Origin: Rhizobiaceae bacterium
Lineage (GTDB): Bacteria; Pseudomonadota; Alphaproteobacteria; Rhizobiales; Rhizobiaceae
Length of the DNA: 46,792 bases
Direction of reading: 5' to 3'
Assembly (NCBI GenBank): GCA_013214695.1
Contig: JABSRX010000002.1
Location: forward strand, 11,541 to 58,332
The notes beneath the pieces were generated by a model that was not told where the DNA came from, ran no database searches, and worked only from the letters and a program-made list of their open reading frames with translations. Below, one piece after another: positions 18,226-46,792 of this stretch (its first letter is position 1; each line of letters starts with the position of its first letter). The position numbers and the translations under genes were made by a program.

Positions 18226-18234
18226 GAAACAAAT

Positions 18235-21607: not shown

Positions 21608-21627
21608 GCCCGGGAAGGCAGCGCAGC

Positions 21628-24183: not shown

Positions 24184-25209
24184 TCAGCTTTTACCGATGC
24201 GCGCACTGCTGCGCACCACAAGCCGCGCCGGTATCACCGCTGCCTTGCGGGTTGCGTCTGGATTGGCGATCTGGTCGAGCAGAATATCGACAGTTGCATC
24301 GATCATCTGTCCCGAAGGTTGTTCGACTGTGGTCAGGTCATAGGCCTTCCATACCGCTTGCGGCACGTCGTCATAACCGACCACCGAAACATCCTCGGGA
24401 ATGTTCAGACCAAATTCGGTGCGTAGCACGTCCATCACGGCAAACGCCATGTGGTCATTGGCCACGAACACAGCGTCTGGCCGCTCCCCACTGCCCTCGC
24501 CGCTTTCGCCGTTGAACAGGTCGCGCGCTGCTTGTGCCGCGCCTGCTTGGGTATAGGCCCCGACGCCTCGCGAAAAACAGACCACACCCCGTTCGGCCAG
24601 GCCTTTGTAGAAACCGGCCTCGCGGTCGCGGTTGGTGGAGGAATCTTCAAATCCGGCGATGAAGGAAATGCGCTCATGACCGCCATCGACGAGAAAGTTG
24701 GCGACCAGCCGACCGCCTTCCAGATTGTCCGACGTCACCGAGTTGGCTGGCGACGTGGCGATGTAGCGGTTGAAGAGGACAACCGGAATGCCGTTATTGG
24801 CGCATTGTTGGGCCAGTTTCGACGACAGGTGAGCCGAGGCCATCACCACGCCTTCGACCTGGTATTGCAGCATGTCCTTGACCACCGCGTCCTGGTCGCC
24901 CTGATCGGTCATGAACAGCAGAACGCGATAACCTTTTTCCTGCAGGGAGCGGGACAGCTTTTCGATCACCACCGGATAAAACTGATTGTCGAGATAGGCG
25001 ACCAGCACTCCAATAATGCCCGACTTGCCGGAAATCAGCGAGCGGGCCAGGGCGTTGGGCCGATAGCCGAGCTCATCCGCCGCCTGCAGCACCTTGCGTC
25101 GTGTATCTTCCGACACCGACGCGCCACGGGTGAACGTACGACTGACAGCGGACTGTGAGACGTGCGCAGCGCGGGCAACATCGGCAGAAGTGACGGTCGG
25201 TTTGGCCAT
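24184..25209 (-). CDS. LacI-family transcriptional regulator
   Basis: A 341-residue repressor. The N-terminal helix-turn-helix reads TSADVARAAHVSQSAVSRTF, followed by the hinge region RPNALARSLISGKSG. The periplasmic-binding-like effector domain follows (IIGVLVAYLDNQFYPVV onward, with SVVGYDDVPQAV near the end). It is divergent from the second TPP enzyme, which it may control. The upstream TTG at 25233 would put a palindrome inside the coding sequence, so ATG 25209 is preferred. LacI proteins bind palindromes with a central CG. The two 16-bp sites at 36228 and 41352 have this feature, so this protein is a candidate to bind them, though it lies 11 kb away. Confidence 0.92.
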   Translation of the reverse strand: MAKPTVTSADVARAAHVSQSAVSRTFTRGASVSEDTRRKVLQAADELGYRPNALARSLISGKSGIIGVLVAYLDNQFYPVVIEKLSRSLQEKGYRVLLFMTDQGDQDAVVKDMLQYQVEGVVMASAHLSSKLAQQCANNGIPVVLFNRYIATSPANSVTSDNLEGGRLVANFLVDGGHERISFIAGFEDSSTNRDREAGFYKGLAERGVVCFSRGVGAYTQAGAAQAARDLFNGESGEGSGERPDAVFVANDHMAFAVMDVLRTEFGLNIPEDVSVVGYDDVPQAVWKAYDLTTVEQPSGQMIDATVDILLDQIANPDATRKAAVIPARLVVRSSARIGKS

Positions 25210-25214
25210 GCGCG

Positions 25215-25231
25215 GGAATGTGTCACGTTCC
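25215..25231. promoter_or_regulatory. Palindrome GGAATGTGTCACGTTCC just upstream of the LacI gene
   Basis: A 17-bp odd palindrome with one mismatched pair (GGAAnGTGnCACnTTCC) ends 6 bp from the LacI ATG in the divergent gap shared with the TPP-enzyme gene. It is a plausible autoregulatory operator. It lacks the central CG usual for LacI proteins, so another regulator is possible. Confidence 0.4.
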
Positions 25232-25355
25232 AAGCGCGCGATGCAATGGGCAAATCACCTAATCACACATCTGCGACATCGCTCCAAAAAGGCAGTTGCC
25301 AGTTCTTCGGTGGGGGATTATCCAGACCCGAACCCTCTTCAACCGGAAAATTTCC

Positions 25356-31562: not shown

Positions 31563-31566
31563 GCGC

Positions 31567-33156: not shown

Positions 33157-34997
33157 GCCGGCACGATTCGCATCTGACGGCCTTGATGCCGAAGCCTGCC
33201 CCGCTGGCCATGCCGCTGCAGGATTTTTCCAAGCCCCATCTCGACCCAGAGGTGCAAAAATTGGGGTCGATGAAGCCAGCCTTTCGTACCGGCCTGTTTC
33301 GACTGGGCACCTTTCTGCCGGCCATCGCCACCTCGCTGGTCCTGTTCTTCATTATCATGGACTGGTTCCGCCGCGATGGGTTCACCGGCATTGAGATTGC
33401 CATGATGCTGATGGTGACCTTCACTTCGTTCTGGATCTCGCTGTCAGTGGCTTCCAGCACGATCGGCTTGTTCTTTGCCCGCAAGGACAAACCGGCTGCT
33501 GCCAGCACCCCGGATGACGCGATGGATGTCGCTCTGCTGATTCCGGTTTACAACGAAGATCCCGATGCGGTTTTTGCCCGCTTGCAGGCGATGCGAGGAG
33601 ATTTGACAACCAGCAAGTCGCATCATCGGTTTGGCATCTTCATGCTCAGCGATACCCGTGACGATGCAATCGCCTTCCGCGAGGCGGCGCTGATTGATCA
33701 GATTCAACATCAGATGGGCAATAAGGTTCCCGTCTTCTATCGACGCAGGGCCCACAATGTTGAGCGCAAGACCGGCAATATCCGCGACTGGATCGAAAAC
33801 TGGGGCGGTGATTGGCAGGCCTTTTTGACGCTGGATGCCGACAGCCTGATGTCGGCTGGTGCGATCATTCGACTGGCGGATGAAATGGCGGCGCAGCCGC
33901 ATGCCGGGCTGATCCAGACAGTGCCGCGCCTGGTCGGGGCCAATTCCATCTTTTCGCGGGTTCAGCAGTTTGCCAACAATGTCTATGGCGGCGCGCTGGC
34001 GCGGGGCCTGGACCGATGGTCCGGCCACGAAGGCAATTATTGGGGTCACAACGCGATCATTCGCACCAAGGCCTTTGCCGCCTGCGCCGGCCTGCCGATA
34101 TTGCGCGGCAGGGGTGCGCTGGCCGGCACGATCAAGAGCCATGATTTTGTGGAAGCGGCCCTGCTGCGCCGGGCTGGATGGTCGGTGCGCCTGATACCGG
34201 AAATCACCGAAACCTACGAAGAAACTCCGCAGACGATCATCGATTACGTCTTGCGCGATCGGCGCTGGTGTCAGGGCAATCTGCAGCATCTGCGTCTGCT
34301 GTTTTCGGCCGGTTTCAAGGGCGCCTCGCGCTTCCACATGCTGCAGGGGGCGATGGCCTATATCGCCTCTGTCGTCTGGTTCGCCCTGCTGGTTGTCTGG
34401 GCGCTGATGGGCCGCGGCCGTGAGGACAGCGTGTTCCGCTATTTTGCCGAGACCAATCCGCTGTTTCCGCAATGGCCGGAAATCGACACGGTCAGCCGCA
34501 CTGTGGTGCTCGGTTTCATGTTGGGTCTGTTGTTGATCCCCAAACTGTTCGGCATTGCGCTGACCGTGCTGGATGATCCGTCACTGAAGGATATGGGCGG
34601 CCGCCGTCGTTTCTTCGCCAATGCGTTTTGCGAAATCACGCTTTCCTTCATTCTTGCCCCGATACTGATGGTCCAGCATGTGTCCGCCGTGTTCCGCACC
34701 GCCATGGGGCTGGATGTCGGCTGGTCACCGCAAAACCGCGCCGGCAGCGTTTATGGCTGGGGAATGCTGATCCGCTTCCATTGGCTGGAAACGCTGGTCG
34801 GATCCTTGCTGATCGCCGGCATCGTGGCCGGTCTGGTTACCCTCTGGCTGGCGCCCATCGCGATCAGTCTGGGATCGGCTGTGTTGATTTCGCACTGGAG
34901 CAGCAAGCCGCTGGCCAGCAATTCGGCCCTGTCGTCGATCATGGAAACCCAGGAGCGGCGTGCGCCGCCGCCAATCATTACGTCCTGCTACGTATAA
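33153..34997 (+). CDS. opgH: Glucans biosynthesis glucosyltransferase OpgH
   Basis: Membrane glycosyltransferase (GT2) that uses UDP-glucose to make the glucan chain. It has 614 residues. The GT2 domain shows LLIPVYNEDP (about 128), LDADSLM (about 226), HDFVEAALLRRAG (about 329) and RRWCQGN (about 370), the last being the conserved Q/RxxRW element. Membrane helices lie at about 50-70, 80-105 and in the C-terminal third. E. coli OpgH has 847 residues; the short form here lacks the long N-terminal extension and resembles Rhodobacter OpgH. A longer open frame from 32832 lies inside opgG; ATG 33153 overlaps the opgG stop. Confidence 0.92.
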   Translation: MSRHDSHLTALMPKPAPLAMPLQDFSKPHLDPEVQKLGSMKPAFRTGLFRLGTFLPAIATSLVLFFIIMDWFRRDGFTGIEIAMMLMVTFTSFWISLSVASSTIGLFFARKDKPAAASTPDDAMDVALLIPVYNEDPDAVFARLQAMRGDLTTSKSHHRFGIFMLSDTRDDAIAFREAALIDQIQHQMGNKVPVFYRRRAHNVERKTGNIRDWIENWGGDWQAFLTLDADSLMSAGAIIRLADEMAAQPHAGLIQTVPRLVGANSIFSRVQQFANNVYGGALARGLDRWSGHEGNYWGHNAIIRTKAFAACAGLPILRGRGALAGTIKSHDFVEAALLRRAGWSVRLIPEITETYEETPQTIIDYVLRDRRWCQGNLQHLRLLFSAGFKGASRFHMLQGAMAYIASVVWFALLVVWALMGRGREDSVFRYFAETNPLFPQWPEIDTVSRTVVLGFMLGLLLIPKLFGIALTVLDDPSLKDMGGRRRFFANAFCEITLSFILAPILMVQHVSAVFRTAMGLDVGWSPQNRAGSVYGWGMLIRFHWLETLVGSLLIAGIVAGLVTLWLAPIAISLGSAVLISHWSSKPLASNSALSSIMETQERRAPPPIITSCYV

Positions 34998-35038: not shown

Positions 35039-36166
35039 TCAGCGGTGACGCAGGCCCAGCTTGTTGCGTCCGAATTGATCACGCACCCGCGCCATGATGT
35101 CGACGTCGAGCTGCAGCAGAATGTGGATGACATCGATGGGCACCCAGTTTTCACGGATCTTGCCCTCGTGATGAAGATAGAAATCCATCACCCGCATTTC
35201 TGTACGCTTGCCGGTTGTGCCGCTGCCGAACAGGCCGCCACCGGTATTCTGCGCAATCACACTGGGCCAGCCTCCGGTGACCGAATAGGGGCCGTCGCCG
35301 ATCTGAATGTAATGGCCGGAATCTGAAGCCGTGCCGCTCTGAGTTTCTTCGTTGATGATCGACTGGCCACCCTTGCGGCCGGGCCAGAACAGGCGGAACG
35401 GCAACTGGTGGAAGTCGACAAAGCCTTCCAGGGCACGGGTGGTGCCGATCCCGGAGGGGCCGTACCACATCATTTTCTCATGCCAGTGTTCCTTCTGTGG
35501 CATGTTGATCAGGCCGTCACGGCCCTTCATTTCGTGATCCTTGTAGTCACCGAGCGATTTGTGCATCGCCAGCGTCTGGGCAATCGAGGCGAGCCCTTCG
35601 TCCATGTCTTGTTCGCTGAGGACCAGCCCGTCGCAGGTGATCGGCCCCATCCAGCGCCCCTCGGTGCCCCAGCTTGGCGCCAGGGGCCAGAAGCCCGCCT
35701 GGCGAATAACATCAAGCACGTCCCAAAGACAGGTTGATTGAACGATCTTGTCGCCGTCCAGAATATGCACCTCGCCATAGCGCAGAAAGATCGGCTGCCC
35801 GGTGGCCGGGATGTCGAGCCAGTCTTCGACAAAGGTTCCGCAATAGTGTCCCACGCAGGCGACCATGTCCTGTTCCTCACCATGACGGTTGCGATACCGC
35901 CCGCCGACCAGGATTTCGTCCCGCCGTTCCAGGTTCGGAAAGCTCGTTTTCAGCGGCAGCCAGGCCGTCTCGGCGACCGCCTGTGTGCCTTGCACTTCGT
36001 TCATTGGATGAGACCCGCGCCAGTGTGCGTCTTGGGCGTAGATGGCGTCGAGAGCCGCTGACAAATCCTCAATTGAGCAATCGGCAATGGCGTGCATTTT
36101 GGCTTGAATCAGCCGTTTATTGGCCAAATTGAGTGCCTGTGGAATGGGAAGGCATCCGTTTTTCAT
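35039..36166 (-). CDS. Tandem SnoaL-like (NTF2-fold) protein, long form
   Basis: A 375-residue protein with two weakly similar SnoaL/NTF2-type halves (about 25-170 and 200-365). Visible features are DAHWRGSHPMNEVQG in half one, repeated Trp-rich segments, and KMMWYGPSGIGTTRALEGFVDFHQLPFR at the start of half two (about 238-265, described by position). NTF2-like proteins bind small hydrophobic or polar ligands in a cone-shaped pocket and often isomerise or dehydrate them. The protein is divergent from the sugar-binding protein gene, sharing a regulatory gap with several palindromes, and resembles in layout the 43541 protein. The first ATG was used; MHAIADCS is an alternative. Function unknown. 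Confidence 0.72.
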   Translation of the reverse strand: MKNGCLPIPQALNLANKRLIQAKMHAIADCSIEDLSAALDAIYAQDAHWRGSHPMNEVQGTQAVAETAWLPLKTSFPNLERRDEILVGGRYRNRHGEEQDMVACVGHYCGTFVEDWLDIPATGQPIFLRYGEVHILDGDKIVQSTCLWDVLDVIRQAGFWPLAPSWGTEGRWMGPITCDGLVLSEQDMDEGLASIAQTLAMHKSLGDYKDHEMKGRDGLINMPQKEHWHEKMMWYGPSGIGTTRALEGFVDFHQLPFRLFWPGRKGGQSIINEETQSGTASDSGHYIQIGDGPYSVTGGWPSVIAQNTGGGLFGSGTTGKRTEMRVMDFYLHHEGKIRENWVPIDVIHILLQLDVDIMARVRDQFGRNKLGLRHR

Positions 36167-36227
36167 CGTAAAATCAATCTATTGCGTTGGAAGTTCGTCA
36201 AAATTGGCTATTCGATCACATTAATCG

Positions 36228-36243
36228 TTGCATACGTATGCAA
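36228..36243. promoter_or_regulatory. 16-bp perfect palindrome TTGCATACGTATGCAA (putative operator 1)
   Basis: A perfect 16-bp palindrome with a central CG lies in the divergent gap between the SnoaL-like gene (start 36166) and the sugar-binding protein gene (start 36388). The same 14-bp core TGCATACGTATGCA recurs at 41353-41366. The central CG and 16-bp size suit a LacI-family operator. Confidence 0.75.
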
Positions 36244-36250
36244 TAAGTGA

Positions 36251-36339
36251 TTGTCTTAACGACAAACGAGTGGCTTGTCTTGTGGTTTTTGTAATCACTA
36301 GACTTGTTTCCGGTCGATGACCGTCGTTTTGCGCGCAAA
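36251..36339. promoter_or_regulatory. Further palindromes in the SnoaL/ABC divergent region
   Basis: Three more symmetric elements lie downstream of operator 1: TTGTC-TTAAC-GACAA (36251-36265), CGGTC-GAT-GACCG (36311-36323) and TTTGCGCGCAAA (36328-36339). Together with operator 1 they occupy much of the 221-bp gap, consistent with a complex control region. None can be assigned to a named regulator. Confidence 0.4.
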
Positions 36340-36387
36340 CACAGTTTTTGAGGTCACTATCAGCCTCAATATCTAGGGAGAAACCAT

Positions 36388-37623
36388 ATGATAAAGAAAC
36401 TACTTCTGGCCAGCGTATTGGCGCTGGCAACATCAGCTACAGCCCACGCTGCCTGTGACATCAGCAGCGGCCGCGTCAGCGTTGTTGGAAACGAGTTCCC
36501 GGCAATTCAGACCGTTGGCAAGGGCGCCATGGCCTGTGCTGGTGATGGTGTTGAAGTCAAAACAAACCTCACAGCTGACCACCAGAAAATCAATCTGGCC
36601 GGTATGCAGGGCAACCCAGCCGAATACACATCCGCGATCATCGCGAACTCTTCAATCGTCGCTCTGATGAACGAAGACGTGATCCGTCCGCTGGACGATC
36701 TGGTCGCCAAATACGGTGGCAGCCTGAAGAAAAACCAGCTGATCACCATCAACGGCAAGGTCATGGCTGTTGCCTTCATGGCCAACGCCCAGCATCTCGT
36801 CTACCGCGCTGACGTGCTGGAGAAAATCGGTGTTGAGCCGCCAAAGACCTACGAAGACATGCTGGCTGCTGCGAAGATGATTCGCGAAAAGGGCATTCTT
36901 CAGAACCCTGTTGGTGGCGCCTATAAAGCTGGCTGGAACCTGGCTCAGGAATTCAACAACATGTTCCTCGGCTACGGCGGTTCGCACTTCAAAGACGGTT
37001 CGGCCATGCCAAACGTCAATTCAGAAGCTGGTGTTAAAGCTCTGAACATGATGAAGGCGCTGAGCGAGTACATGAACCCTGACTTCCTGACCCACGATTC
37101 CAACGCAACCAACGCTGAATACCGCGCCGGTAACGTGGCTCTGATGAACATGTGGGGTTCCCGCGCAGCAACCATGACCGATGCTGACGGCGTGCCACAG
37201 GAAGTCATCGACGGCTTCAAGATTGCTGGCCCAATGACTGTCGGTGGTGGTTCCACTGCAGCCTCCACCCTGTGGTGGGACGGTTGGACCGTTGCCAAGA
37301 ACATCTCCGATGCAGACGCTGAAGCGACCTTCAAGGCGATGATGAACGGTATCGACCCAGCTATGCTGAAAGACGCAGAAGTCGCCAAGCAGGCTGTCTG
37401 GCTGATCGATGGATATGAGCCAACTGCAGCCGCCACCGGCGTGTTTGCTGCTGCTCAGATGAACACCATTCCTTACCCAATGTTGCCTTACATGGGTCTG
37501 ATGCACACTGCACTGGGTGCAGAGCTTGCAGACTTCATGCAGGGCAAGGAAAGCGCCGAGCAGGCTCTGGCAGACGTTGAAGCTGCCTACACTGCTGCCG
37601 CTAAGGAAAACGGTTACCTGTAA
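36388..37623 (+). CDS. Sugar-type ABC transporter substrate-binding protein (family 1)
   Basis: A 411-residue periplasmic receptor with a Sec signal peptide (MIKKLLLASVLALATSATA, cleavage near AHA before ACDISSG). It belongs to the SBP_bac_1 type of carbohydrate ABC importers by fold pattern (TADHQKINLAGMQGNPAEY early, GYGGSHFKDGSAMPNVNSE in the middle, YRAGNVALMNMWGSRA later). Ala is mostly GCT and Leu mostly CTG, so codon use looks restricted, consistent with high expression. GGGAGAAACCAT gives a good ribosome site. A hairpin follows its stop. It is the first gene of a four-gene importer. The ligand is probably a sugar, polyol or a similarly hydroxylated compound, but it is not known. Confidence 0.9.
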   Translation: MIKKLLLASVLALATSATAHAACDISSGRVSVVGNEFPAIQTVGKGAMACAGDGVEVKTNLTADHQKINLAGMQGNPAEYTSAIIANSSIVALMNEDVIRPLDDLVAKYGGSLKKNQLITINGKVMAVAFMANAQHLVYRADVLEKIGVEPPKTYEDMLAAAKMIREKGILQNPVGGAYKAGWNLAQEFNNMFLGYGGSHFKDGSAMPNVNSEAGVKALNMMKALSEYMNPDFLTHDSNATNAEYRAGNVALMNMWGSRAATMTDADGVPQEVIDGFKIAGPMTVGGGSTAASTLWWDGWTVAKNISDADAEATFKAMMNGIDPAMLKDAEVAKQAVWLIDGYEPTAAATGVFAAAQMNTIPYPMLPYMGLMHTALGAELADFMQGKESAEQALADVEAAYTAAAKENGYL

Positions 37624-37630
37624 AAACCTT

Positions 37631-37661
37631 GGAGCGGCGCCGCACTTGTCGGTGCCGCTCC
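37631..37661 (+). terminator. Hairpin after the sugar-binding protein gene (attenuator-like)
   Basis: A 12-bp stem, GGAGCGGCGCCG/CGGTGCCGCTCC with one G-T wobble and a 7-nt loop, starts 8 nt after the stop and is followed by CTTCTCTTTT. The T-tract is imperfect, so partial termination between binding protein and permease genes is likely. Confidence 0.75.
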
Positions 37662-37686
37662 CTTCTCTTTTGGCGGACATTTCAGC

Positions 37687-38712
37687 ATGAAACATAAGAC
37701 CTTCTTCTGGTTCTTTTTGCCGACCGGCCTGGCGATGCTGGTATTCATTGCCGCGCCCATCGTCTCCGTCGTCATGCAGTCCATGTTCCTGCCCATCGAG
37801 GCGGTGCTGGTTGAGACCGAAAACTGCGGTCCCTTCGGCTGTAAGACGGAAACCACGATCGATCAGGAAGCCACCGCGAAACTGCGCGAAGCCAATCCGC
37901 TTGGGCGTTTTGCCGGTCTGGAAGTCTATTTTGACCGGGGCCATCTGGCGACGTCTGAAGTTGCTGAAGCCTGGAACACCAGCGAAAGCTGGGGCGCCTT
38001 TTTTGCTGAACTGCGCGACCTGCCCTTCTATCGGGCCATTGCTTTCACGCTGACCTACACATTTGTCTGCACACCTTTGTTGATCGCCCTTGGCTTTGCC
38101 ATCGCCGTTGCTGTCAACTCGCTTCACCGGCATCTCAAAGGCCTGGTGATCTTCTTTTCCCTCCTGCCGATGATCGTCACCCCGCTGGTTGGATCACTGA
38201 TCCTGTTCTGGATGATCGATTCCCGCGGCATATTGGGGAACTTCATCTCATTTCTGGCCAATGACCCGGACCTCAGCTTGAAGGCATCGACGCCGTTGAT
38301 GTGGACTTCGCTGATTGTCTACGGCATCTGGTCATCTGCTCCATTTGCCTTTGTGGTGTTCTATGCCGGCCTTCAGACGGTGCCGCAGGACACGCTTGAA
38401 AGCGCCCAGATTGACGGCGCCACCCGTTGGCAGCAGATCCGTTATGTAACTATTCCGCACATCATGCCGCTGGTCACTTTCGTGGCGCTGATTCAGCTGA
38501 TGGACAATTTCCGCGTGTTTGAACCGATTGTCGGGTTCAACGCGGAAGCCCATGCAACCTCACTCAGTTGGATCATCTTTAACGATCTCGGCGGAGAGAC
38601 CCGCCAGTTGGGGGCGGCGGCGACGACCTCGGTGCTGACCATTTTGGGCGTGGCTATTTTGCTCAGTCCGGTGCTGGTGCGCACCTGGCGCGACTTCCGT
38701 GGGAGGACCTGA
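37687..38712 (+). CDS. Sugar-type ABC transporter permease, MalF-like
   Basis: A 341-residue inner-membrane permease. After an N-terminal helix (FFWFFLPTGLAMLVFIAAPIV) comes a periplasmic loop of about 70 residues that contains two close cysteines (ENCGPFGCKTE, about 41-51). The helices then resume near FYRAIAFTLTY. The EAA loop reads ESAQIDGATRWQQIRYVTIPHI (about 238-259, described by position). The Cys pair in the loop is unusual and could form a disulfide outside the membrane. It is followed by the second permease after 3 nt. Confidence 0.92.
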   Translation: MKHKTFFWFFLPTGLAMLVFIAAPIVSVVMQSMFLPIEAVLVETENCGPFGCKTETTIDQEATAKLREANPLGRFAGLEVYFDRGHLATSEVAEAWNTSESWGAFFAELRDLPFYRAIAFTLTYTFVCTPLLIALGFAIAVAVNSLHRHLKGLVIFFSLLPMIVTPLVGSLILFWMIDSRGILGNFISFLANDPDLSLKASTPLMWTSLIVYGIWSSAPFAFVVFYAGLQTVPQDTLESAQIDGATRWQQIRYVTIPHIMPLVTFVALIQLMDNFRVFEPIVGFNAEAHATSLSWIIFNDLGGETRQLGAAATTSVLTILGVAILLSPVLVRTWRDFRGRT

Positions 38713-38715
38713 TCG

Positions 38716-39597
38716 ATGGCTGCTGCTTCCCAAAGAAAACCGCTTGGACTGCAGATCTTCCTGTCGGCCTTTGTCGTCATCTGGCTGATCATGGCGGCGT
38801 TCCCGTTCATCTGGACCCTTTGGGGCTCCTTTAAGGTTGAACTCGACTTCTTCTCAATCGCCGACTGGACGAACGCCATTACCGGCGTCCGCACCGAGAC
38901 CACCCATGGCTCGCCGTTTACCGATGCCGGCTATGTCGGCGCCTGGGTCCAGGAAGAATTCTGGCGCAATGTGATCAACACGTCGCTGGTCTGCATTTTC
39001 GTGGTCGCCACGTCGCTGACCATTGGAACGCTTGGTGGCTATGCGTTAAGCCGGTCCGGTTTCAAATATGTCTTCTGGCTGCTGATCATCGCCCTGATCT
39101 TCCGCGCCATGCCGCCGATTACCCTGGTGTCCGGCTATCTGCCCGTGTTCTTTGACTACAATGTCTGGGGCTATTTGCCGACGGCGATTGTCGTCCTGGT
39201 GGCGATCAACCAGCCGTTCACCCTGTGGATGCTGCACTCGTTCTTTGAGGGCATTCCAAAGGAGTTGGACGAAAGCGCCAAGGTCGACGGCTGCACCCAG
39301 TTCCAGGCGTTCCGTCAGGTGATCATTCCGGTGATGTGGCCGGGTGTCATCACCACAGGGCTGTTCTCGTTCCTGTTGGCCTATAACGACTTTGCGGTAA
39401 CTTCGATGGTTCTGGCTGAGCAGAACCGCACCATGGTGCCCGCCATCGCGGCCTTCCTGGGAACCACCTATACGGAAGGCAATGTGATGTTTGCGGTGGC
39501 CGCTGTGGTCTCGGCAACAGCGCCGCTCTTCGTGCTTGTCATGTTCTTCCAGCGCCAGATCGTCAGCGGCCTCACCGCCGGCGCGGTCAAGGGGTAG
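38716..39597 (+). CDS. Sugar-type ABC transporter permease, MalG-like
   Basis: A 293-residue inner-membrane permease with six helices. The EAA loop DESAKVDGCTQFQAFRQVIIP (about 188-208, described by position) shows the family pattern ESAxxDG, followed by the VITTGLFSFLLAYNDF region. The first periplasmic loop (about 42-85) is longer than in many MalG proteins. It starts 3 nt after the MalF-like gene and pairs with it to form the transport channel. A gap of 60 bp then precedes the ATPase gene. Confidence 0.92.
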   Translation: MAAASQRKPLGLQIFLSAFVVIWLIMAAFPFIWTLWGSFKVELDFFSIADWTNAITGVRTETTHGSPFTDAGYVGAWVQEEFWRNVINTSLVCIFVVATSLTIGTLGGYALSRSGFKYVFWLLIIALIFRAMPPITLVSGYLPVFFDYNVWGYLPTAIVVLVAINQPFTLWMLHSFFEGIPKELDESAKVDGCTQFQAFRQVIIPVMWPGVITTGLFSFLLAYNDFAVTSMVLAEQNRTMVPAIAAFLGTTYTEGNVMFAVAAVVSATAPLFVLVMFFQRQIVSGLTAGAVKG

Positions 39598-39657
39598 AAC
39601 ATGGTGCCACAGCAAAAAACTAACCGCGCTTTTTGGCGCCCATTCGAAGGTTGAGAA

Positions 39658-40707
39658 ATGGCCAGTATCAGTCTCAAGAAAGTAAGCAAACGCTGGGGCG
39701 ACTTTGTCGGTGTTCAGGAGTTTGACCTGGAAATTGCCGACAAGGAATTCCTGGTTCTTCTCGGGCCATCCGGTTGTGGCAAGACCACGACCATGCGGAT
39801 GATCGCAGGACTGGAAGAAGCAACTTCCGGAGAAATCTGGATTGGCGATCGCATGGTCAACGATCTGGAGCCGAAGGACCGCGACATTGCGATGGTGTTC
39901 CAGAGCTACGGCCTGTATCCGAATATGACGGTCTACGATAACATTCGATTTCCTCTGAAGGTGCGTAAAGTCGATGCCTCGACCCACGCGGAACGGGTTC
40001 AGCGCGCCGTTGATATGGTGGAGCTGAACGAGTTTACACATCGTCGCCCGGCGGAACTGTCTGGTGGTCAGCGTCAGCGCGTTGCCCTGGCACGCGCGAT
40101 TGTCCGTGAACCCACCGTGTTCCTGATGGACGAGCCGCTGTCCAACCTAGACGCCAAACTGCGCGTTTCGACCCGCGCCCAGATCAAGAACTTGCAGAAC
40201 ACACTTGCGACCACAACCATCTACGTGACCCATGATCAGATCGAAGCCATGACATTGGCGGATCGCGTTGTCGTCATGAATGCTGGCGTCGTGCAGCAGG
40301 TCGGCACGCCGGTCGACATTTACGACCGCCCACAGAACACCTTTGTGGCCAGCTTTATCGGCTCGCCCGCCATGAACCTGATGGAAGGCACGCTGGAGAA
40401 CGGCGTGTTCACCGGCGAAAACGTTAAGGTGACAGGCTTGAGCAAAGATCATTCAGGTCCTGTCACCCTGGGTTTCCGCGCCGAGGATGCTGAGATTTCA
40501 GACAAGGCCGCGGCAATTGAAGCGCCCGTTTATTCGATGGAACTGCTGGGTGAAGCTACGATGGTCACGGCCAAGGCCGGCGGCAATCTAGTTTCGGTCA
40601 AGGCGGCAAAGGATTATCGTTCGGATATCGGTGATACCGTGCATGTCTCGATCCCGGGTGACATCTGTCATCTGTTCGACGGCACGTCCGGCGAGCGCCT
40701 CGACTAG
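39658..40707 (+). CDS. Sugar-type ABC transporter ATP-binding protein (UgpC/MalK/MsmX type)
   Basis: A 349-residue ATPase. Walker A GPSGCGKTT is at about 36-44, the Q-loop VFQSYGLYPNMTV near 81, the signature LSGGQRQR near 136 and Walker B VFLMDEP near 157, followed by SNLDAKLR typical of the MalK group. The C-terminal third (about 240-349) is a TOBE/regulatory domain (FIGSPAMNLMEG, LGFRAEDAEI). It completes the importer with the two permeases. A SnoaL-like gene follows 37 nt later. Confidence 0.94.
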   Translation: MASISLKKVSKRWGDFVGVQEFDLEIADKEFLVLLGPSGCGKTTTMRMIAGLEEATSGEIWIGDRMVNDLEPKDRDIAMVFQSYGLYPNMTVYDNIRFPLKVRKVDASTHAERVQRAVDMVELNEFTHRRPAELSGGQRQRVALARAIVREPTVFLMDEPLSNLDAKLRVSTRAQIKNLQNTLATTTIYVTHDQIEAMTLADRVVVMNAGVVQQVGTPVDIYDRPQNTFVASFIGSPAMNLMEGTLENGVFTGENVKVTGLSKDHSGPVTLGFRAEDAEISDKAAAIEAPVYSMELLGEATMVTAKAGGNLVSVKAAKDYRSDIGDTVHVSIPGDICHLFDGTSGERLD

Positions 40708-40744
40708 ACCGGCTCACGATTCATAGAGAAAGACCAAGGCGTCC

Positions 40745-41290
40745 ATGAAAGGCTCCCGTCCTGAACAGTCCTACCTGACTCGCGACAACGACCCTGCCGC
40801 AACCGAAGCGACACGGGGCGTCATCGAGGACATGGTGGATGGTCTCAACGACCACCGTATCGCCGATATTGGCGAGTTTTTTGCTGACGGCTTCCGCTGG
40901 ATGGGCAATGCCGGCTGCGGCTTCAAGGAAGGTCTGCGGGAGTTTCAGGAAGCCTGGCAAAAGCCGTTTCAGGCGGCCTTTTCCGACAAGGTCTGCATCG
41001 ATGAAGCGCGGCTGTTCGATGGTCAATGGGCGGCTGCCCTTGGCCGTCAGGAAGCGGTGCATTCCGGCCCGTTTTTCGGCATCGAACCAACCGGCAAAAA
41101 GGTCGTTATCCGCTACATGGATTTCTGGAAGGTTGTTGACGGCAAGATCGTCGACAACTGGGTCATGGTCGATTTTCCCAGCGTGCTGCAACAATTGGGG
41201 CACGACGTTTTCGATGGAAAAGGCTGGGAAAATCTGACCGACAATCCCAAGCGGGATTTCCGTCCAGAACAATTGCCGTGGCGAACTTAA
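40745..41290 (+). CDS. SnoaL-like (NTF2-fold) protein, short form
   Basis: A 181-residue protein with one NTF2/SnoaL domain. The core reads VIEDMVDGLNDHRIADIGEFFADGFRWMGNAG at the start (about 26-57, described by position) and VVIRYMDFWKVVDGKIVDNWVMVD near the end, a pattern typical of ester cyclase/SnoaL-like proteins. It may isomerise, dehydrate or cyclise a small ligand. It sits between the ATPase gene and the HisD-like gene, with AAGG before its ATG. It is the second of three SnoaL-like proteins in this cluster, the others being double-domain. Confidence 0.78.
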   Translation: MKGSRPEQSYLTRDNDPAATEATRGVIEDMVDGLNDHRIADIGEFFADGFRWMGNAGCGFKEGLREFQEAWQKPFQAAFSDKVCIDEARLFDGQWAAALGRQEAVHSGPFFGIEPTGKKVVIRYMDFWKVVDGKIVDNWVMVDFPSVLQQLGHDVFDGKGWENLTDNPKRDFRPEQLPWRT

Positions 41291-41351
41291 GTCAATCAAA
41301 CCCGTAAATTAGAGGAGAAGGGCCAAAGCGAAATCCGAACCAGTCGAACCA

Positions 41352-41367
41352 CTGCATACGTATGCAG
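41352..41367. promoter_or_regulatory. 16-bp perfect palindrome CTGCATACGTATGCAG (putative operator 2)
   Basis: A second perfect 16-bp palindrome with the same 14-bp core as operator 1 (TGCATACGTATGCA). It lies 43 bp upstream of the HisD-like start and 62 bp after the short SnoaL-like gene. It indicates an internal promoter or regulated site for the downstream enzymes and ties them to the importer. Confidence 0.75.
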
Positions 41368-41409
41368 GCCCATCGTCGACGCGGAATTTCCCGGCCAATG
41401 GAGCAACAC

Positions 41410-42738
41410 ATGATCCGTCATCTGAAAACTGCCCGTAGTGAAGAAGACCGCGCTGAAGACGATGCCAAGGTGCGCAGCACCGTTGAAGGCATCTTGAAGG
41501 ACATCGAAACCCGGGGTGACGCGGCGGTGCGTGAACTGTCGCAGAAGTTCGACAATTATGCGCCGGACAATTTCCGTCTGAGTGAATCCGAGATTGAAGC
41601 GGCGATGAACAAAGTGTCCGAGCGGGACATGGAAGACATCAAGTTTGCACAGACCCAGATCCGCAACTTTGCCGAAGCGCAGCGGGCGTCGATGACCGAT
41701 ATCGAGGTCGAGACCTTGCCGGGCGTAATTCTCGGCCACAAGAACATCCCGGTTCAGTCGGTGGGATGTTACGTTCCTGGTGGCAAGTTCCCAATGGTTG
41801 CTTCGGCCCATATGTCGGTGCTGACCGCATCGGTTGCCGGCGTGCCACGTATTGTTGCTTCCGCACCGCCACAAAATGGCGAGCCGCATCCGGCGATTGT
41901 CGCCGCCATGAAGATGGGCGGCGCCCACGAAATTTATGTCATGGGGGGCATTCAGGCCGTGGGCTCCATGGCACTCGGCACCCAGACCATCGAGCCTTGT
42001 CATATGATCGTCGGTCCCGGCAATGCCTTCGTGGCCGAAGCCAAGCGGCAGCTGTTTGGCCGCGTTGGTATCGATCTGTTTGCCGGCCCCACCGAGACCA
42101 TGGTGATTGCCGATGAGACGGTTGATGCAGAAATGTGCGCCACAGACCTGCTCGGCCAAGCGGAGCACGGTTACAACTCGCCGGCTGTTCTGGTCACCAA
42201 TTCAGAAAAACTCGCCAAGGAGACCGTGGCCAAGATCGACCGCATCCTGAAGATTCTGCCGACCGCTGAAACCGCGTCGAAGAGCTGGGAAGATTATGGT
42301 GAGGTGATCGTTTGCGATACCTATGTTGAAATGTTGGAAGTCGCTGATGACATCGCTTCTGAACATGTGCAGGTGATGACCGATCGTGATGACTGGTTCC
42401 TGGAAAACATGACCTGTTACGGCGCGTTGTTCCTGGGCCCACGCACCAACGTGTCGAATGGCGACAAGGTGATCGGTACGAACCACACCTTGCCGACCAA
42501 GAAAGCTGGCCGCTACACCGGTGGTCTGTGGGTTGGCAAATTCCTGAAGACCCACTCCTATCAGAAAGTTCTCACAGACGAGGCAGCAGCCCATATCGGT
42601 GAAGTCGGCTCGCGTCTGTGCATGCTGGAAGGCTTTGTTGGTCACGCGGAACAGTGCAATGTACGCGTACGCCGCTATGGGGGCCGCAACGTGCCCTATG
42701 GCGCAGCTGCTGAGCCGATCGTCGACGCGGCAGAATGA
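41410..42738 (+). CDS. Histidinol-dehydrogenase-family NAD-dependent alcohol dehydrogenase, HpsN-like
   Basis: About 442 residues. Equivalents of the HisD zinc ligands and catalytic pair are present: LLGQAEHG (Gln, His), SEHVQVM (Glu, His), [13 protein letters not shown] (Asp, His) and EGFVGHAEQ (His). The sequence around [21 protein letters not shown] resembles HpsN-type enzymes, which oxidise (R)-2,3-dihydroxypropanesulfonate to sulfolactate. As there is no histidine operon here, a catabolic alcohol dehydrogenase is far more likely than histidine synthesis. The frame opens at 41362, but that start falls within the operator palindrome; ATG 41410 has GGAG 6 nt upstream. The real substrate is unknown. 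Confidence 0.85.
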
Positions 42739-42760
42739 GAGCCAAACTGGAGACACCTGA

Positions 42761-43528
42761 ATGACCGACCTGCCGCGCACGCCCACCTTTCAATTGAATG
42801 GCAAAAAGGCACTTGTCACCGGTGCCTCCCGGGGCATCGGTCTTGGCGGCGCCATGGCCCTCGCCGAGCATGGGGCGCATGTGGTCATGGCGGCCCGCAA
42901 TGCCGAGGAAATCGGCCTGGCCGCCCAGGCCATTCGCGACGCCGGTTACAAAGCCGACGGCATCGCGCTGGACGTTGCAGATCGCGAATCGATGATCTCG
43001 TCGATCCGCCAACACGGTCCGTTCGACATTCTGTTCAACAATGCCGGCACCAATGACCCAACACCGTTTGTCGACGTGACGCCGGAAAACTTCGACAAGA
43101 TCATGGACCTCAACCTGCGCTCCGCGTTTTTTGTCGCCCAGGAAGTGGCGAAGGGTATGATCGAGGCTGGCAATGGCGGGTCGATCATCCACACATCGAG
43201 CCAGATGGGCCATGTCGGTGGCATCGACCGGGCGGTTTATTGTGGGTCGAAGTTTGGCATTGAAGGGGTGACGAAAGCATCGGCCATCGAACTGGCAGCC
43301 CACAAGATCCGGGTCAACACAATCTGCCCGACCTTCATCCGCACGCCGATGACCGCAAGCACGTTTGAAAATCCCGAGCGGGTCGCCTGGCTGGAAGAGA
43401 AGATCAAACTTGGGCGGGTCGGTGAAATTGAGGATGTCATGGGAGCCGTCGTGTTCCTGGCCAGCGATGCCTCGGCATTGGTGACCGGAACCAGCCTGCT
43501 CATCGATGGTGGCTGGACCGCTGATTAA
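42761..43528 (+). CDS. Short-chain dehydrogenase/reductase (SDR)
   Basis: A 255-residue classical SDR. The cofactor motif TGASRGIGLGG is at about 21-31, NNAG near 91, and the catalytic Ser and YxxxK are in HTSSQMGHVGG (about 145) and AVYCGSKFG (Tyr about 158, Lys about 162). The C-terminus has the usual VTGTSLLIDGGWTAD. Acidic or basic selectivity of the cofactor is not decisive: RNAEE follows strand 2, suggesting NADP use. It lies 22 nt after the HpsN-like gene with GGAG before the ATG. It probably oxidises or reduces a secondary alcohol in the same pathway. Confidence 0.92.
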   Translation: MTDLPRTPTFQLNGKKALVTGASRGIGLGGAMALAEHGAHVVMAARNAEEIGLAAQAIRDAGYKADGIALDVADRESMISSIRQHGPFDILFNNAGTNDPTPFVDVTPENFDKIMDLNLRSAFFVAQEVAKGMIEAGNGGSIIHTSSQMGHVGGIDRAVYCGSKFGIEGVTKASAIELAAHKIRVNTICPTFIRTPMTASTFENPERVAWLEEKIKLGRVGEIEDVMGAVVFLASDASALVTGTSLLIDGGWTAD

Positions 43529-43540
43529 AGGAACCAAACA

Positions 43541-44542
43541 GTGACGATCAAAGGCTTTTCCCAGCAGTGGAAAGATTTTCCCGACTACATTCTCGGCATT
43601 ACCCAGGAGATCTGGGAAGGCCGCGGTATTGGCACGCTCAACCACTATTACACCGACGATATTCCGGTGCGCTCCCCGATGGGTATCCAGCAGGGCAACG
43701 AGGCTGTCATGGCCGCGACCATGGGCACTCTGTACGAGTTTCCTGATCGTGAGCTGCTCGGCGAAGACGTGATCTGGTCCGGCGATCCCGAAACCGGCCT
43801 GTTGTCCTCGCATCGCATCATTACCACCGCCACCCATGCCCGTGATGGCGCCTTCGGTCCGGCGACGGGCAAGAAGTTCAAGGTCCGGGTGATCGCTGAT
43901 TGCGCCGCCAAGGACAACGCCATTTTCGATGAATGGCTGGTGCGCGACTATGGCGGCATTGTCCGGCAATTGGGCATGGATCCGAAAACCTACGCGGCTG
44001 ATCTGATCGCCCGCGAAGGCGGTCCCGACCATTGCGGCAAGCCCTTCACACCCGCCATGGATATCGACGGCGGCTACCATGGCACCGGCAATGACAATGA
44101 GTGGGGGGCTAAATATGCCACCATTCTCAACCGCTTGATGGACAAGGATTTCAACGTCGTCACGGAGGTCTATGACCGCGCTGTGGTGGCCGAATATGCC
44201 GGCGCCGTCTCGGGACTGTCATTTGCTTCGGTCGACGCCTTCTGGCTTGGCCTGCGCTCTTCTTTCCCGGACGCCGAGTTCAAGATCCATCACCAGATCG
44301 GATTGGACGGCGACAATAGGATGTCGCCAAGAGCTGCCATTCGATGGTCGCTGGACGGCACTCATTCTGGCTGGGGCACATTCGGCGCACCAACCGGAGC
44401 ACCGGTTCATGTGATGGGCATGTGCCACGCGGAATTCGGCCCCTACGGCGTCAATGGCGAAGGCATCCGGCGCGAATATGCCCTGTACGACGAAATCGCA
44501 ATCTGGAAACAAATCTTAATGCACAGTGGAGAGCTTTCATGA
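43541..44542 (+). CDS. Tandem SnoaL-like (NTF2-fold) protein
   Basis: A 333-residue protein starting with GTG behind AAGGAA. Two NTF2/SnoaL halves are seen (about 15-160 and 195-330), with YYTDDIPVRSPMGIQQG in half one and TEVYDRAVVAEYAG followed by DAFWLGLRSSFPDAEF in half two. No catalytic motif can be named with certainty. It resembles in design the divergent 35039 protein, so the cluster has two such double-domain proteins. Its stop overlaps the bicupin start as ATGA, which couples their translation and suggests that the two act together. Confidence 0.75.
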   Translation: MTIKGFSQQWKDFPDYILGITQEIWEGRGIGTLNHYYTDDIPVRSPMGIQQGNEAVMAATMGTLYEFPDRELLGEDVIWSGDPETGLLSSHRIITTATHARDGAFGPATGKKFKVRVIADCAAKDNAIFDEWLVRDYGGIVRQLGMDPKTYAADLIAREGGPDHCGKPFTPAMDIDGGYHGTGNDNEWGAKYATILNRLMDKDFNVVTEVYDRAVVAEYAGAVSGLSFASVDAFWLGLRSSFPDAEFKIHHQIGLDGDNRMSPRAAIRWSLDGTHSGWGTFGAPTGAPVHVMGMCHAEFGPYGVNGEGIRREYALYDEIAIWKQILMHSGELS

Positions 44543-45510
44543 CACCCGAAGAGATGGAAGCGAGAATTGTTCGCTACGGGGATCTGATGCCCTGCAAGAC
44601 GGCCTTTATCGACGCGCACACCCCCGGTTCAGACAGCAAGGAAAACTTCACCATCATCGGTGGTGGCGTGTCTGAGTCACCGGACCAGCATGTCCATATT
44701 GCCGAAACCCCAGGTTTCAATATCGGCGCCGCAGGCCAGCCACCAAAGTGCCGCAACTCGCTGCACAGCCATCGCACGGCGGAGGTGTTTTATGTCCACA
44801 AAGGGCGCTGGCGCTTTTTCTGGGGCCGCCATGGCACGGCAGGCGAGGTCACTTTGGAAGAAGGCGACATCTTCAACATTCCAACCGGCATCTTCCGCGG
44901 CTTTGAGAATATCGGCACCGACTATGGAATGATCATGGCCATTCTGGGTGGTGATGATGCTGGTGGTGGCGTGATCTGGGCACCGCAGGTGATCCAGGAT
45001 GCAACCGATCATGGTTTGGTTCTGGCTGAAACAGGCCGTCTCTATGACACTAAAAAGGGTGAAGCTTTGCCCGATGGCGTTAACCCGATGCCCCTGCTTA
45101 CCGAAGATGAGCTGAAAAACTATCCGGAAGTGCCGGTCGACGAGGTCGTGCCTTATTATATCGGCCGCTATCACGATATGGCCGCTCTGGCCGCCAACAA
45201 GCCCGCCGACATCATCTCGGAAGATGGCCTGATCCGCGACAAGCCCGGCTTTGAGGTTGAATTCATCACCCGCGGCTCGCTTTCGGGTCCGCAGGGTGGC
45301 AATGGGCGCCACCACGTTTTGATGATTCATGAAGGCCATTGGCGCTTGAGTTGGGACGGTTCTGAAAAGACCCTCGCGCCAGGCGATTGCTGTGCTGTTC
45401 CGCCCGGCGTTTCCTACCAGCTTGACCCCAGCATGACCGGCACCTGCAGCCTGTTCCGGGTGATCGATACCGACGATCCGGCCGGCCCGACCGCGACCGA
45501 CCTGAACTGA
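44539..45510 (+). CDS. Bicupin-domain protein
   Basis: About 323 residues with two cupin barrels. The first (about 65-145) has the metal pattern LHSHRTAEVFYVHKG (His, His and Glu) followed by GDIFNIPTGIFRGFEN. The second (about 235-315) has HHVLMIHEGHWRLSWDG and LAPGDCCAVPPGVSYQL with fewer obvious metal ligands, so it may be structural. Bicupins include dioxygenases, isomerases and decarboxylases. The longer frame from 44344 runs inside the SnoaL-like gene; ATG 44539, overlapping its stop, is the real start. The reaction is unknown, but the setting is catabolic. Confidence 0.83.
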   Translation: MTPEEMEARIVRYGDLMPCKTAFIDAHTPGSDSKENFTIIGGGVSESPDQHVHIAETPGFNIGAAGQPPKCRNSLHSHRTAEVFYVHKGRWRFFWGRHGTAGEVTLEEGDIFNIPTGIFRGFENIGTDYGMIMAILGGDDAGGGVIWAPQVIQDATDHGLVLAETGRLYDTKKGEALPDGVNPMPLLTEDELKNYPEVPVDEVVPYYIGRYHDMAALAANKPADIISEDGLIRDKPGFEVEFITRGSLSGPQGGNGRHHVLMIHEGHWRLSWDGSEKTLAPGDCCAVPPGVSYQLDPSMTGTCSLFRVIDTDDPAGPTATDLN

Positions 45511-45524
45511 TACAGGTTGGCTGA

Positions 45525-46792
45525 ATGAACCACATCGCCGAACCCGCGCGACAGACGCCGATCGTGCACGAAACCGACGTGCTGGTCGTCGGGTCTGGCC
45601 CCGGTGGTCTTGCTGCGGCATTGGCCGCCGCCCGCTGCGGTGCAGATGTCACGCTTGTCGAACGCTTTGGCTGTTTTGGCGGCAATATCACGGTTGTCGG
45701 TGTTGAAGGCTTTGCCTGGTACCGCCACGAGCAGACGGTTGAAGCAGGCGGCATCGGTCGCGAATTCGAAGAACGCGCCAAGCAGATGGGGGCGGCGGTG
45801 CCCGAAAGCCAGTCGCTGTCTTATGAACTGGACAGTGAAGGTTTCAAACTGGTGGCCGACAAATTGGTGCAGGAAGCGGGCATTACACCGATGCTGCATC
45901 GCCAGTTCGTCGCGCCGGTGATGAGCGGCAATACAATCACTGGCATTATTGTTGAAAGCAAAAACGGCCGCGAAGCTATCATGGCCAAACGGGTGATCGA
46001 CGGCACCGGCGATGCCGACATTGCCCACCGCGCCGGAGCGCCGACGATCAAAACACCGATGGAAGACATGCAGGCGGCCTCAGTCATGTTCCATGTGGCG
46101 GGGGTCGACAAACAGGCTTTCATGGAAGGCGTGCGCCAAGACCCGCAGACCTATTCAGACTGGTCGACAGGTGAATGGCAGGTGGAAACGTCGGGCAAGG
46201 AAGACGATATGTTTTCGCCGTTCTTGAAAAAGCCGTTTGAGCAAGCAATTGCTGACGGCGTCATTTCGGCCGATCTCAACACCATTGCCGGTACCTGGGG
46301 TGCCGTCCATGACAGCGGTGAAATGACCTATATGAACCTGATTCATCTCGACGGATGCGACGGCACCGACGCCGACAGCATGACCCGTTTCGAGATCGAA
46401 GGCCGTCGTCAGGCGATGCAGGCGATCGAAGCGCTTCGGCGGTATATGCCTGGAGGCGAGGGCATACGGCTGCGCAATTTTGGCATGTCGATTGGCATCC
46501 GGGATACGCGCAAGATCGATGCCGTCTACAATATGACGGAACAGGATGTGCGTGAGCAGGGCCGTTTTGAGGACAGTATCGGCATCTATCCCGAATTTAT
46601 TGACGGGTATGGCATATTGATCCTGCCGACCACCGGGCGTTACATGCATATTCCCTATCGCTGCATGGTGCCGAAGCAAGTTGACAATCTGCTGGTCGTA
46701 GGTCGGGCGATTGGTGGCGACAAGGTTGCCCACGCGGCAACCCGCAACATGGCGTGTTGCGCAGTGGTAGGGCAGGGGGCCGGCATTGCTGC
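45525..46792 (+). CDS. FAD-dependent oxidoreductase (FAD_oxidored family), 3' end beyond the window
   Basis: The visible 422 codons begin MNHIAEPARQT. A dinucleotide-binding motif VLVVGSGPGGLAAALAAARCG (described as about residues 19-39) binds FAD, followed by VTLVERFGCFGGNITVVG, in which the Cys-Phe-Gly-Gly pattern is typical of this family. Near the end, LLVVGRAIGGDKVAHAATRNMACC matches the second FAD contact, close to the usual C-terminus, so only a small part is missing. Such enzymes oxidise or reduce hydroxylated or unsaturated acids. It closes the visible cluster 14 nt after the bicupin gene. Substrate unknown. Confidence 0.88.
   Translation, partial: MNHIAEPARQTPIVHETDVLVVGSGPGGLAAALAAARCGADVTLVERFGCFGGNITVVGVEGFAWYRHEQTVEAGGIGREFEERAKQMGAAVPESQSLSYELDSEGFKLVADKLVQEAGITPMLHRQFVAPVMSGNTITGIIVESKNGREAIMAKRVIDGTGDADIAHRAGAPTIKTPMEDMQAASVMFHVAGVDKQAFMEGVRQDPQTYSDWSTGEWQVETSGKEDDMFSPFLKKPFEQAIADGVISADLNTIAGTWGAVHDSGEMTYMNLIHLDGCDGTDADSMTRFEIEGRRQAMQAIEALRRYMPGGEGIRLRNFGMSIGIRDTRKIDAVYNMTEQDVREQGRFEDSIGIYPEFIDGYGILILPTTGRYMHIPYRCMVPKQVDNLLVVGRAIGGDKVAHAATRNMACCAVVGQGAGIA

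Follow-up and report, generated by a model that had tools for sequence, protein, structure and literature searches.

A recurrent importer operon with a HisD/HpsN-family dehydrogenase and a MetE-like protein as a candidate for an undescribed bacterial catabolism

The stretch of Rhizobiaceae DNA considered here (46,792 bases, hereafter the window, lying within contig C112 of a draft genome of 4.35 Mb that is 94.66% complete) ends in a gene set that joins a sugar-type ATP-binding cassette (ABC) importer with a zinc dehydrogenase of the HisD/HpsN superfamily, a short-chain dehydrogenase/reductase (SDR), one single-domain and two double-domain SnoaL-type proteins (sno1, snoA2, and snoB2), and a bicupin, and that continues past the window with a MetE-like protein and an alpha/beta hydrolase. 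The set is very probably a catabolic importer operon, and it looks like an undescribed catabolism in kind. No description of it was found among the open-access papers listed in searches that were partly aimed at the MetE-like protein only and that had supplementary files and subscription papers outside their scope. The genes recur together in many genomes, an operator-like site is shared, active-site residues are kept, and the dehydrogenase carries neither the HisD nor the HpsN signature. It is tentatively proposed that a LacI-type regulator controls the uptake and catabolism of a small, water-soluble compound of the polyol type (a sugar, cyclitol, or glyceryl compound) that would be common in the sea and methylated. 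That the methyl group of such a substrate is moved to homocysteine is a proposal for which the case falls just short of even, and any single named substrate is unlikely to be the right one.

A sequence-only reading of the window had proposed a pathway of no known type, with a full sugar-type importer, an HpsN-like dehydrogenase, and a redox step by a flavoprotein. The undescribed catabolism stands, and the importer was confirmed in all its parts (solute-binding protein, two permeases, and UgpC-type ATPase); the HpsN role and the flavoprotein as a core component do not stand. Beyond that reading's view, owing to the window edge or to distance, lay the MetE-like enzyme, the hydrolase, the LacI-type regulator, and an RraA-type gene of the relatives.

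Recurrence of the gene set

The MetE-like protein was used for an alignment scan of named genomes, and the best 80 of 583 confirmed relatives were taken as loci; 17 were excluded for short flanks and 63 were counted. Presence means presence anywhere in the fetched locus, with identity limits from 25% (snoA2 and the hydrolase) to 60% (the HisD-like dehydrogenase), and low counts may stem from divergence or contig ends. The counts are of copies, not of independent events (L043 and L070 are probably one contig fetched twice). Near the MetE-like gene, the HisD-like gene and the SDR gene are each present in 59 of the 63 loci, snoB2 in 58, and the bicupin in 56, followed by snoA2 (54, at no less than 25% identity), LacI (53), permease B (50), sno1 (49), and permease A (48). 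Lower counts were obtained for the hydrolase (41), RraA (39), the binding protein (37), and the ATPase (21). The carriers among the best 80 are Roseobacters, Rhizobiaceae, SAR116, Planktomarina, SUP05, Thioglobus, Granulosicoccaceae, and Porticoccaceae, lineages that we take to be mostly marine; the Porticoccaceae set (L081) is partial and divergent, and the nearest MetE-like matches, at 85–88% identity, come from Rhizobiaceae metagenome-assembled genomes. In our judgement, recurrence in such distant lineages means that the co-occurrence of the set is not due to chance.

Within the order of the host, a MetE-like match at E 1e-60 was found in 26 of 297 genomes, at 67% identity or more in 19 and at 38–51% in seven. 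Within the family, 19 of 151 genomes have a snoB2 match at E 0.001, and in 16 of these (own genome included) the identity is 57% or more. The neighbourhoods L038–L055 repeat the set in whole or in part and add two genes that the window operon lacks, one for a LacI-type regulator and one of the RraA type; the latter name is taken from the annotated records of relatives, and the protein misses the NCBIfam cut-offs by a wide margin. Plasmid copies of the set in Ruegeria conchae and Octadecabacter arcticus are annotated as ester cyclase/NTF2 family, histidinol dehydrogenase, SDR, LacI, cupin, cobalamin-independent methionine synthase II, alpha/beta hydrolase, and RraA proteins. The repetition of an operon of largely the same dozen genes in unrelated ocean bacteria, SAR116 and SUP05-type ones included, suggests a common marine compound whose breakdown has yet to be assigned. 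A second, partial set lies near a contig end in the own genome (L053, G000:C63:1-11408, positions 4816-11231), with a binding protein (51%), permeases (63% and 73%), two snoA2-like genes, and one snoB2 (57%).

A shared operator-like site

The LacI gene of the window lies 10 kb upstream of the operon. Its product is 54% identical over 339 amino acids to the operon-internal LacI of the relatives, and it is probably the displaced regulator of the operon. In the window, the perfect palindrome of the divergent promoter region has two matches at up to three mismatches (36228 and 41352) against 0.17 expected, the second being a near copy of the first and standing ahead of the dehydrogenase gene. Among the relatives, 43 sites were found in 29 of 101 loci at up to two mismatches, compared with 0.4 in mononucleotide shuffles. 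Judged by these matches, the LacI protein and its putative palindromic operator tie the gene set together. In the whole of the own genome, five places match the 14-base core with at most one mismatch, and two of them are in the operon; a control with the reversed pattern gave none, and a rough estimate is 0.7 by chance. A regulon beyond the operon was considered and rejected, as the other three sites show no clear pathway. One of these (L163 8120-8133, G000:C369:17119; one mismatch) lies, judged by eye, some 50 bases upstream of a gene for a Bmt-like homocysteine methyltransferase and may be a chance occurrence.

The dehydrogenase lies outside the HisD and HpsN signatures

The closest solved relatives of the dehydrogenase are the dehydrogenases of 2,3-dihydroxypropanesulfonate (DHPS), namely 8v35 (E 3.8e-113) and 8wwe, which rank ahead of HisD. 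HpsN, the R-DHPS 3-dehydrogenase, is reported to have the signature GRY[A/S]H, in which His126 contacts the sulfonate, and the HisD counterpart is GSAPL (PMC11382572). At the same place, the 81 copies in 103 loci have GKFPM (75), GKYPM (2), or GKYPL (2), with two copies not covered. Thus, GK[FY]P[ML] is found in all 79 readable copies, and the His that contacts the sulfonate in HpsN is replaced by Met or Leu. The metal-binding and catalytic residues (Gln, His, Glu, His, Asp, Lys, and His, Glu318/His319 included) are kept in 80 of the 81 copies, one copy being partly covered. Because these residues are kept and the protein has a loop and a clade of its own, it probably shares the HpsN/HisD mechanism and reads a different substrate.

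The clade was obtained in a midpoint-rooted FastTree phylogeny of 46 sequences, in which the 23 GK[FY]P proteins group together with a support of 0.878, adjacent to the GRY[A/S]H sequences and separate from the GRYPL, GTASY/GLASY-type, and GKGSF clades. The clades are named by their loops, and the separation from HpsN and HisD was made in a tree free of characterised enzymes; the clade with GTASY and GLASY loops is taken to be the biosynthetic HisD. The grouping would add one more group to a family of dehydrogenases that automatic annotation names histidinol dehydrogenase. A PF00815 protein with a GKGSF loop (L002/L006, G000:C390), 31% identical to the window enzyme, forms a long-branched clade with the three other members of the genus in the tree and is possibly its histidine-biosynthetic enzyme. 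The HisD-like clade with GRYPL loops (L056 2283-3632, L124 14126-15595, and L190) fits neither signature.

A biosynthetic role, already doubted in the sequence-only reading, was rejected on loop, clade, and context, despite the match of the protein to the NCBIfam hisD model (439 bits against a cut-off of 243.8). This match speaks for HisD but was given little weight, since HpsN belongs to the same Pfam family. No histidine genes were noticed in the window operon or among the recurrent neighbours of the relatives. The HpsN-like role, which the same reading had favoured, could not be upheld either. No medium-chain dehydrogenase (MDR; HpsP) or sulfolyase is present in the window operon, nor was one seen among the relatives, whose recurrent neighbours alone were inspected, by eye. 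The own genome carries a separate GRYAH copy on C312, 47% identical and lying between MDR-like and tripartite ATP-independent periplasmic (TRAP)-like frames (by eye), and a true Xsc on C386 (932 bits against a cut-off of 676). On loop, clade, the missing sulfolyase, and these two genes, HpsN was rejected as the preferred identity. Two thiamine diphosphate enzymes of the window were tried as Xsc and rejected: that at 13881-15749 reaches 262.8 bits against a cut-off of 676.4, and that at 25296-26993 matches in two pieces only, of 79 and 75 bits.

Compared with the HpsNOP system for R-DHPS, the operon has in common the zinc-dependent nicotinamide adenine dinucleotide (NAD) dehydrogenase family, its metal and catalytic residues, and an adjoining SDR of the same Pfam family. 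It differs in the loop, in the genes recognised (no HpsP and no sulfolyase in the set), in its additional SnoaL, bicupin, and MetE-like genes, and in its ABC importer, import in the HpsN pathway being of the TRAP type.

The MetE-like protein and the transfer of a methyl group

The zinc ligands of E. coli MetE are H641, C643, E665, and C726, and the homocysteine residues are S433, E484, and D599 (PMC7857596). Alignment to MesD (3rpd) and other MetE-type structures places H243, C245, E277, and C343, as well as S11, E63, and D197, at the equivalent sites of the MetE-like protein, and all seven residues are kept in 98 of 98 copies. They are also kept in one sphingomonad (52–53% identity), one Rhodococcus (47%), and one haloarchaeal (42%) relative. 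The protein consists of the catalytic domain only and lacks the folate-binding N-terminal domain. Since the seven residues are kept and the folate domain is missing, it is probably a homocysteine methyltransferase with a donor other than folate. In this it resembles the core folate-independent methionine synthases MesA–MesD, which are likewise restricted to the catalytic domain with the zinc ligands HCEC and the homocysteine residues S, E, and D. Its sequence is, however, only distantly similar to MesD (E 7.9e-9), the one member of the group compared, and it stands within a catabolic operon. The operon suggests that core methionine synthases can serve as catabolic demethylases.

This gene is not obviously required for methionine synthesis in general, because the own genome holds other candidates: Bmt-like and corrinoid-protein-like frames on C369 (by eye) and, beside a FolE2-like frame on C41, a second MetE-like copy (73% identical). 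PF02965 has no match in the own draft genome (94.66% complete).

Genes of methyl transfer recur in the neighbourhood of MetE-like genes, which favours the proposed role. A DmdA-like GcvT protein is found in one SAR116 locus (370.9 bits against the DmdA cut-off of 410) and in one Planktomarina locus, where it is 65% identical to the former, with one small frame in between. A S-adenosylmethionine (SAM) methyltransferase lies near the MetE-like gene in nine loci, eight of them with the set. In two sphingomonads, the syringate O-demethylase DesA (849.9 and 834.9 bits against a cut-off of 800) lies 1.4 kb and 6 kb, respectively, from a MetE-like gene of 52–53% identity, with LigAB in one of them. 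The known methoxy-aromatic O-demethylation of sphingomonads offers a comparison: in Novosphingobium pentaromativorans US6-1, a SnoaL_4 protein is encoded next after a MetE-like gene (52% identical) that is 1.4 kb away from DesA and from an alpha/beta hydrolase 32% identical to that of the operon, whereas the window operon has a sugar-type importer instead and no DesA/LigM or LigAB. Two observations were made on more remote relatives. On a Rhodococcus plasmid (L139 9989-12186), the MetE-like gene (47%) is directly followed by a 2-oxoglutarate-Fe(II) oxygenase gene, and this pair could be a simpler system for the study of the methyl donor. The flavin adenine dinucleotide (FAD) protein beside the haloarchaeal MetE-like gene was considered as a counterpart of the flavoprotein of the operon and proved unrelated.

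SnoaL-type proteins, bicupin, and accessory genes

The model of snoB2 has a mean predicted local distance difference test score (pLDDT) of 94.3 and has Foldseek matches, domain by domain, to IdmH, ChaU, AclR, and SnoaL2, with a template modelling (TM) score of about 0.8 by target. In sno1, H106 is kept in 61 of 62 copies and D126 in 62 of 62, residues that correspond to the His/Asp pair of the SnoaL literature. The fold and this pair are shared with the SnoaL/AclR/IdmH cyclases; the operon differs in that two of its three proteins have two domains and that the context is catabolic, with no polyketide genes in the window operon and none noticed among the recurrent neighbours of the relatives.

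The bicupin model is less confident (mean pLDDT 79.4). It matches 1gqh, 4fag, and 5vg3, with query TM scores of 0.42–0.52 among the 50 matches listed, and resembles quercetinase, salicylate dioxygenase, and oxalate decarboxylase alike; such matches are too general to name a reaction. The bicupin fold is thus shared with the quercetinase- and gentisate/salicylate-type dioxygenases, but not the full metal set of the first cupin, where H76, H78, E82, and Arg120 are kept in 88 of 89 copies, the remaining copy not being covered. The SDR is closest to the glucose 1-dehydrogenase model, at 211.3 bits just under the cut-off of 215. The sugar-type binding protein has SmoF, the sulfoquinovosyl-glycerol binding protein, as its best solved relative by sequence (E 4e-10).

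For the flavoprotein, to which a redox step had been assigned, the other loci searched yielded no homologue at E 1e-20, and it was dropped as a core step. Also rejected as core components for their rarity, some of the hits being partial or outside the set, were a GMC oxidoreductase (10 hits), the SAM methyltransferase (9), the DmdA-like protein (2), and an amidohydrolase (2).

Proposed pathway and alternatives

We infer the class of the substrate, the order of the steps, each single reaction, and the methyl donor from the genes described above. The ABC system would import the compound, and the HisD-like zinc enzyme would then take a terminal CH(OH)-CH2OH group to the hydroxy acid with two NAD+, by means of the HpsN/HisD metal and catalytic residues and a different substrate-recognition loop. 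The SDR would oxidise a secondary alcohol, and the SnoaL-type proteins may dehydrate, isomerise, or eliminate on the resulting keto compound. Next, a pathway intermediate or a carrier would give up the methyl group to homocysteine through the MetE-like enzyme, yielding methionine. The bicupin and the alpha/beta hydrolase would open or trim the product, and in the relatives the RraA-type protein (class II aldolase family) may cleave a 2-oxo acid to central metabolites.

Several observations weigh against this proposal. For a core MetE, the methyl donor must be activated; neither a corrinoid protein nor a MesX-like partner was recognised among the genes of the window operon, and DmdA-like proteins and SAM methyltransferases were seen in only two and nine, respectively, of about 100 loci searched. 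The HisD-like gene is missing from four of the 63 MetE-like loci, and two of these four, the Litoreibacter loci L123 and L134, lack nearly all of the set, so that the MetE-like gene can also stand alone. At up to two mismatches, 72 of 101 loci have no operator, although many of these lack a promoter region or the site may have diverged. The bicupin lacks a fourth metal ligand, Arg120 standing at the place of the last His in what we take to be the usual first-cupin set, HxH...E...H. The neighbour of the GK[FY]P clade, L191 (PF00815, 62% identical), has GRYPM, so that some variation of the loop exists outside the counted loci.

In a first alternative, the same operon acts on an unmethylated substrate, and a core methionine synthase, in the form of the MetE-like protein, travels along or recycles methyl groups from elsewhere. 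The MetE-like relatives without the set (L123, L134, and the C41 copy) are in line with it, as is the report that deletion of a Mes-like gene, possibly not orthologous to this one, left the response of Phaeobacter inhibens to dimethylsulfoniopropionate unaffected (PMC12366255). On the other hand, the HisD-like gene accompanies the MetE-like gene in 59 of 63 loci, and the latter stands inside the operon, not beside it, in distant lineages. We regard this alternative as rather unlikely.

A narrower form of the methylated-substrate proposal names O-methylated sugars from marine polysaccharides, which would be oxidised at C1 and C6, demethylated, and cleaved by a retro-aldol reaction. It would account for the CUT1-type importer, the LacI regulator, the SDR nearest to glucose 1-dehydrogenase, the RraA-type genes, HpcH aldolase-like frames in four loci (by eye), and a fuconolactonase-like amidohydrolase (103 bits against a cut-off of 400) that adjoins the set in two loci. 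However, glycoside hydrolases and sugar kinases were not conspicuous among the recurrent neighbours, and O-methyl ethers are poor donors to a zinc thiolate unless activated first. It is considered unlikely.

Another specific reading, which we hold to be very unlikely, makes the operon a bacterial pathway for methoxy-cyclohexenone sunscreens of the gadusol/mycosporine type. The HisD-like enzyme would oxidise the ring CH2OH next to a tertiary OH, the SnoaL-type enzymes would dehydrate and isomerise the ring, and the bicupin would open it; the hydrolase and the RraA-type aldolase would complete the breakdown in the manner known from gallate, with the O-methyl group passing to homocysteine through the MetE-like enzyme. 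If true, a core methionine synthase would act in demethylation, and a sink for algal sunscreens would extend across Roseobacters, SAR116, and SUP05.

Degradation of quaternary ammonium compounds or of betaine-lipid head groups, with a glyceryl part and N-methyl groups, is suggested by two Thioglobus loci. In L129 (1-3125), a carnitine dehydrogenase (704 bits against a cut-off of 592), a BKACE-type protein, and an MttB-like fragment stand just upstream of the set, and in L137, carnitine-dehydrogenase/BKACE-like frames lie upstream (1-2124, by eye) and a DAO-GcvT protein just downstream (18156-20570). A glyceryl end would also suit an HpsN-like enzyme, but these are two loci of one lineage, and three SnoaL proteins and a bicupin have no apparent use in such a pathway, which makes it highly improbable. 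Least probable of all, and barely tenable, is a variant DHPS (sulfonate) pathway of HpsN and an HpsO-like SDR: the closest solved relative is HpsN, and an SDR of the HpsO family (PF13561; PMC11382572) is encoded directly after the dehydrogenase, but the recognition loop is lost, the clade is separate, no sulfolyase was recognised in the set, and a GRYAH-type copy and a true Xsc are encoded elsewhere in the genome.

Organization of the locus and neighbouring genes

All genes named in the sequence-only reading were found as open frames of the families proposed, as judged by the open-frame list and the Pfam and NCBIfam models, and two starts were revised (Table 1). The bicupin more likely starts at 44539 than at 44344, since its orthologues begin there, and the dehydrogenase more likely at 41410 than at 41362, since the palindrome occupies 41352-41367 and most orthologues begin near that residue. 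That reading had called for the sequence beyond 46792, where the end of the FAD gene is followed by the MetE-like and hydrolase genes, all in the same direction; an ABC exporter-like frame lies about 450 bases beyond the hydrolase (by eye). From 37687 onward, the intergenic gaps by open frames range from -4 to +71 bases (119 before the dehydrogenase with the start at 41410), so the genes from there on likely form a single transcript. In a promoter/terminator scan of the region, counts equalled those of shuffles (14 against 13.9 for hairpin-type sites).

Table 1. Features of the operon and its putative regulator (window positions; L004 positions with window equivalents beyond the edge)
Feature	Position	Strand	Basis
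LacI-family regulator	24184..25233	-	PF00356 + Peripla_BP_3
snoA2, double SnoaL-domain protein, divergent from importer	35039..36166	-	PF07366, two stretches
Operator-like perfect palindrome TTGCATACGTATGCAA, divergent promoter region (snoA2/binding-protein gap)	36228..36243	.	Palindrome scan
Sugar-type solute-binding protein	36388..37623	+	PF13416/PF01547
Strong hairpin, 12 pairs, between binding-protein and permease genes	37631..37661 (L004 5172-5202)	+	
ABC permease A	37687..38712	+	PF00528
ABC permease B	38716..39597	+	PF00528
ABC ATPase, UgpC subfamily	39658..40707	+	NF008653, 459.4 bits vs cut-off 432
sno1, single SnoaL protein	40745..41290	+	PF07366
Second operator-like palindrome CTGCATACGTATGCAG	41352..41367	.	
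HisD/HpsN-superfamily zinc dehydrogenase, loop GKFPM	41410..42738 (open frame from 41362)	+	PF00815
SDR dehydrogenase	42761..43528	+	PF13561
snoB2, double SnoaL-domain protein	43541..44542	+	
Bicupin	44539..45510	+	Cupin_2
FAD_oxidored flavoprotein	45525..46792, cut by window edge; stop at window-equivalent 46886	+	PF12831, 303 bits
MetE-like protein, 377 aa	L004 14479-15612 = window-equivalent 46938-48071	+	PF01717
Alpha/beta hydrolase, 236 aa	L004 15617-16327 = window-equivalent 48076-48786	+	PcaD-type models below cut-offs

Between the LacI gene and the operon, at 30288-34997, lie periplasmic glucan genes for OpgC, MdoG, and an OpgH-like glycosyltransferase. Further upstream, a run at 15739-22548 encodes a GntR-type regulator, an Asp/Glu racemase-like protein, two PhyH-type oxygenases, and galactarate/altronate dehydratase-like and tartronate-semialdehyde-reductase-like proteins, and is a possible separate undescribed pathway.

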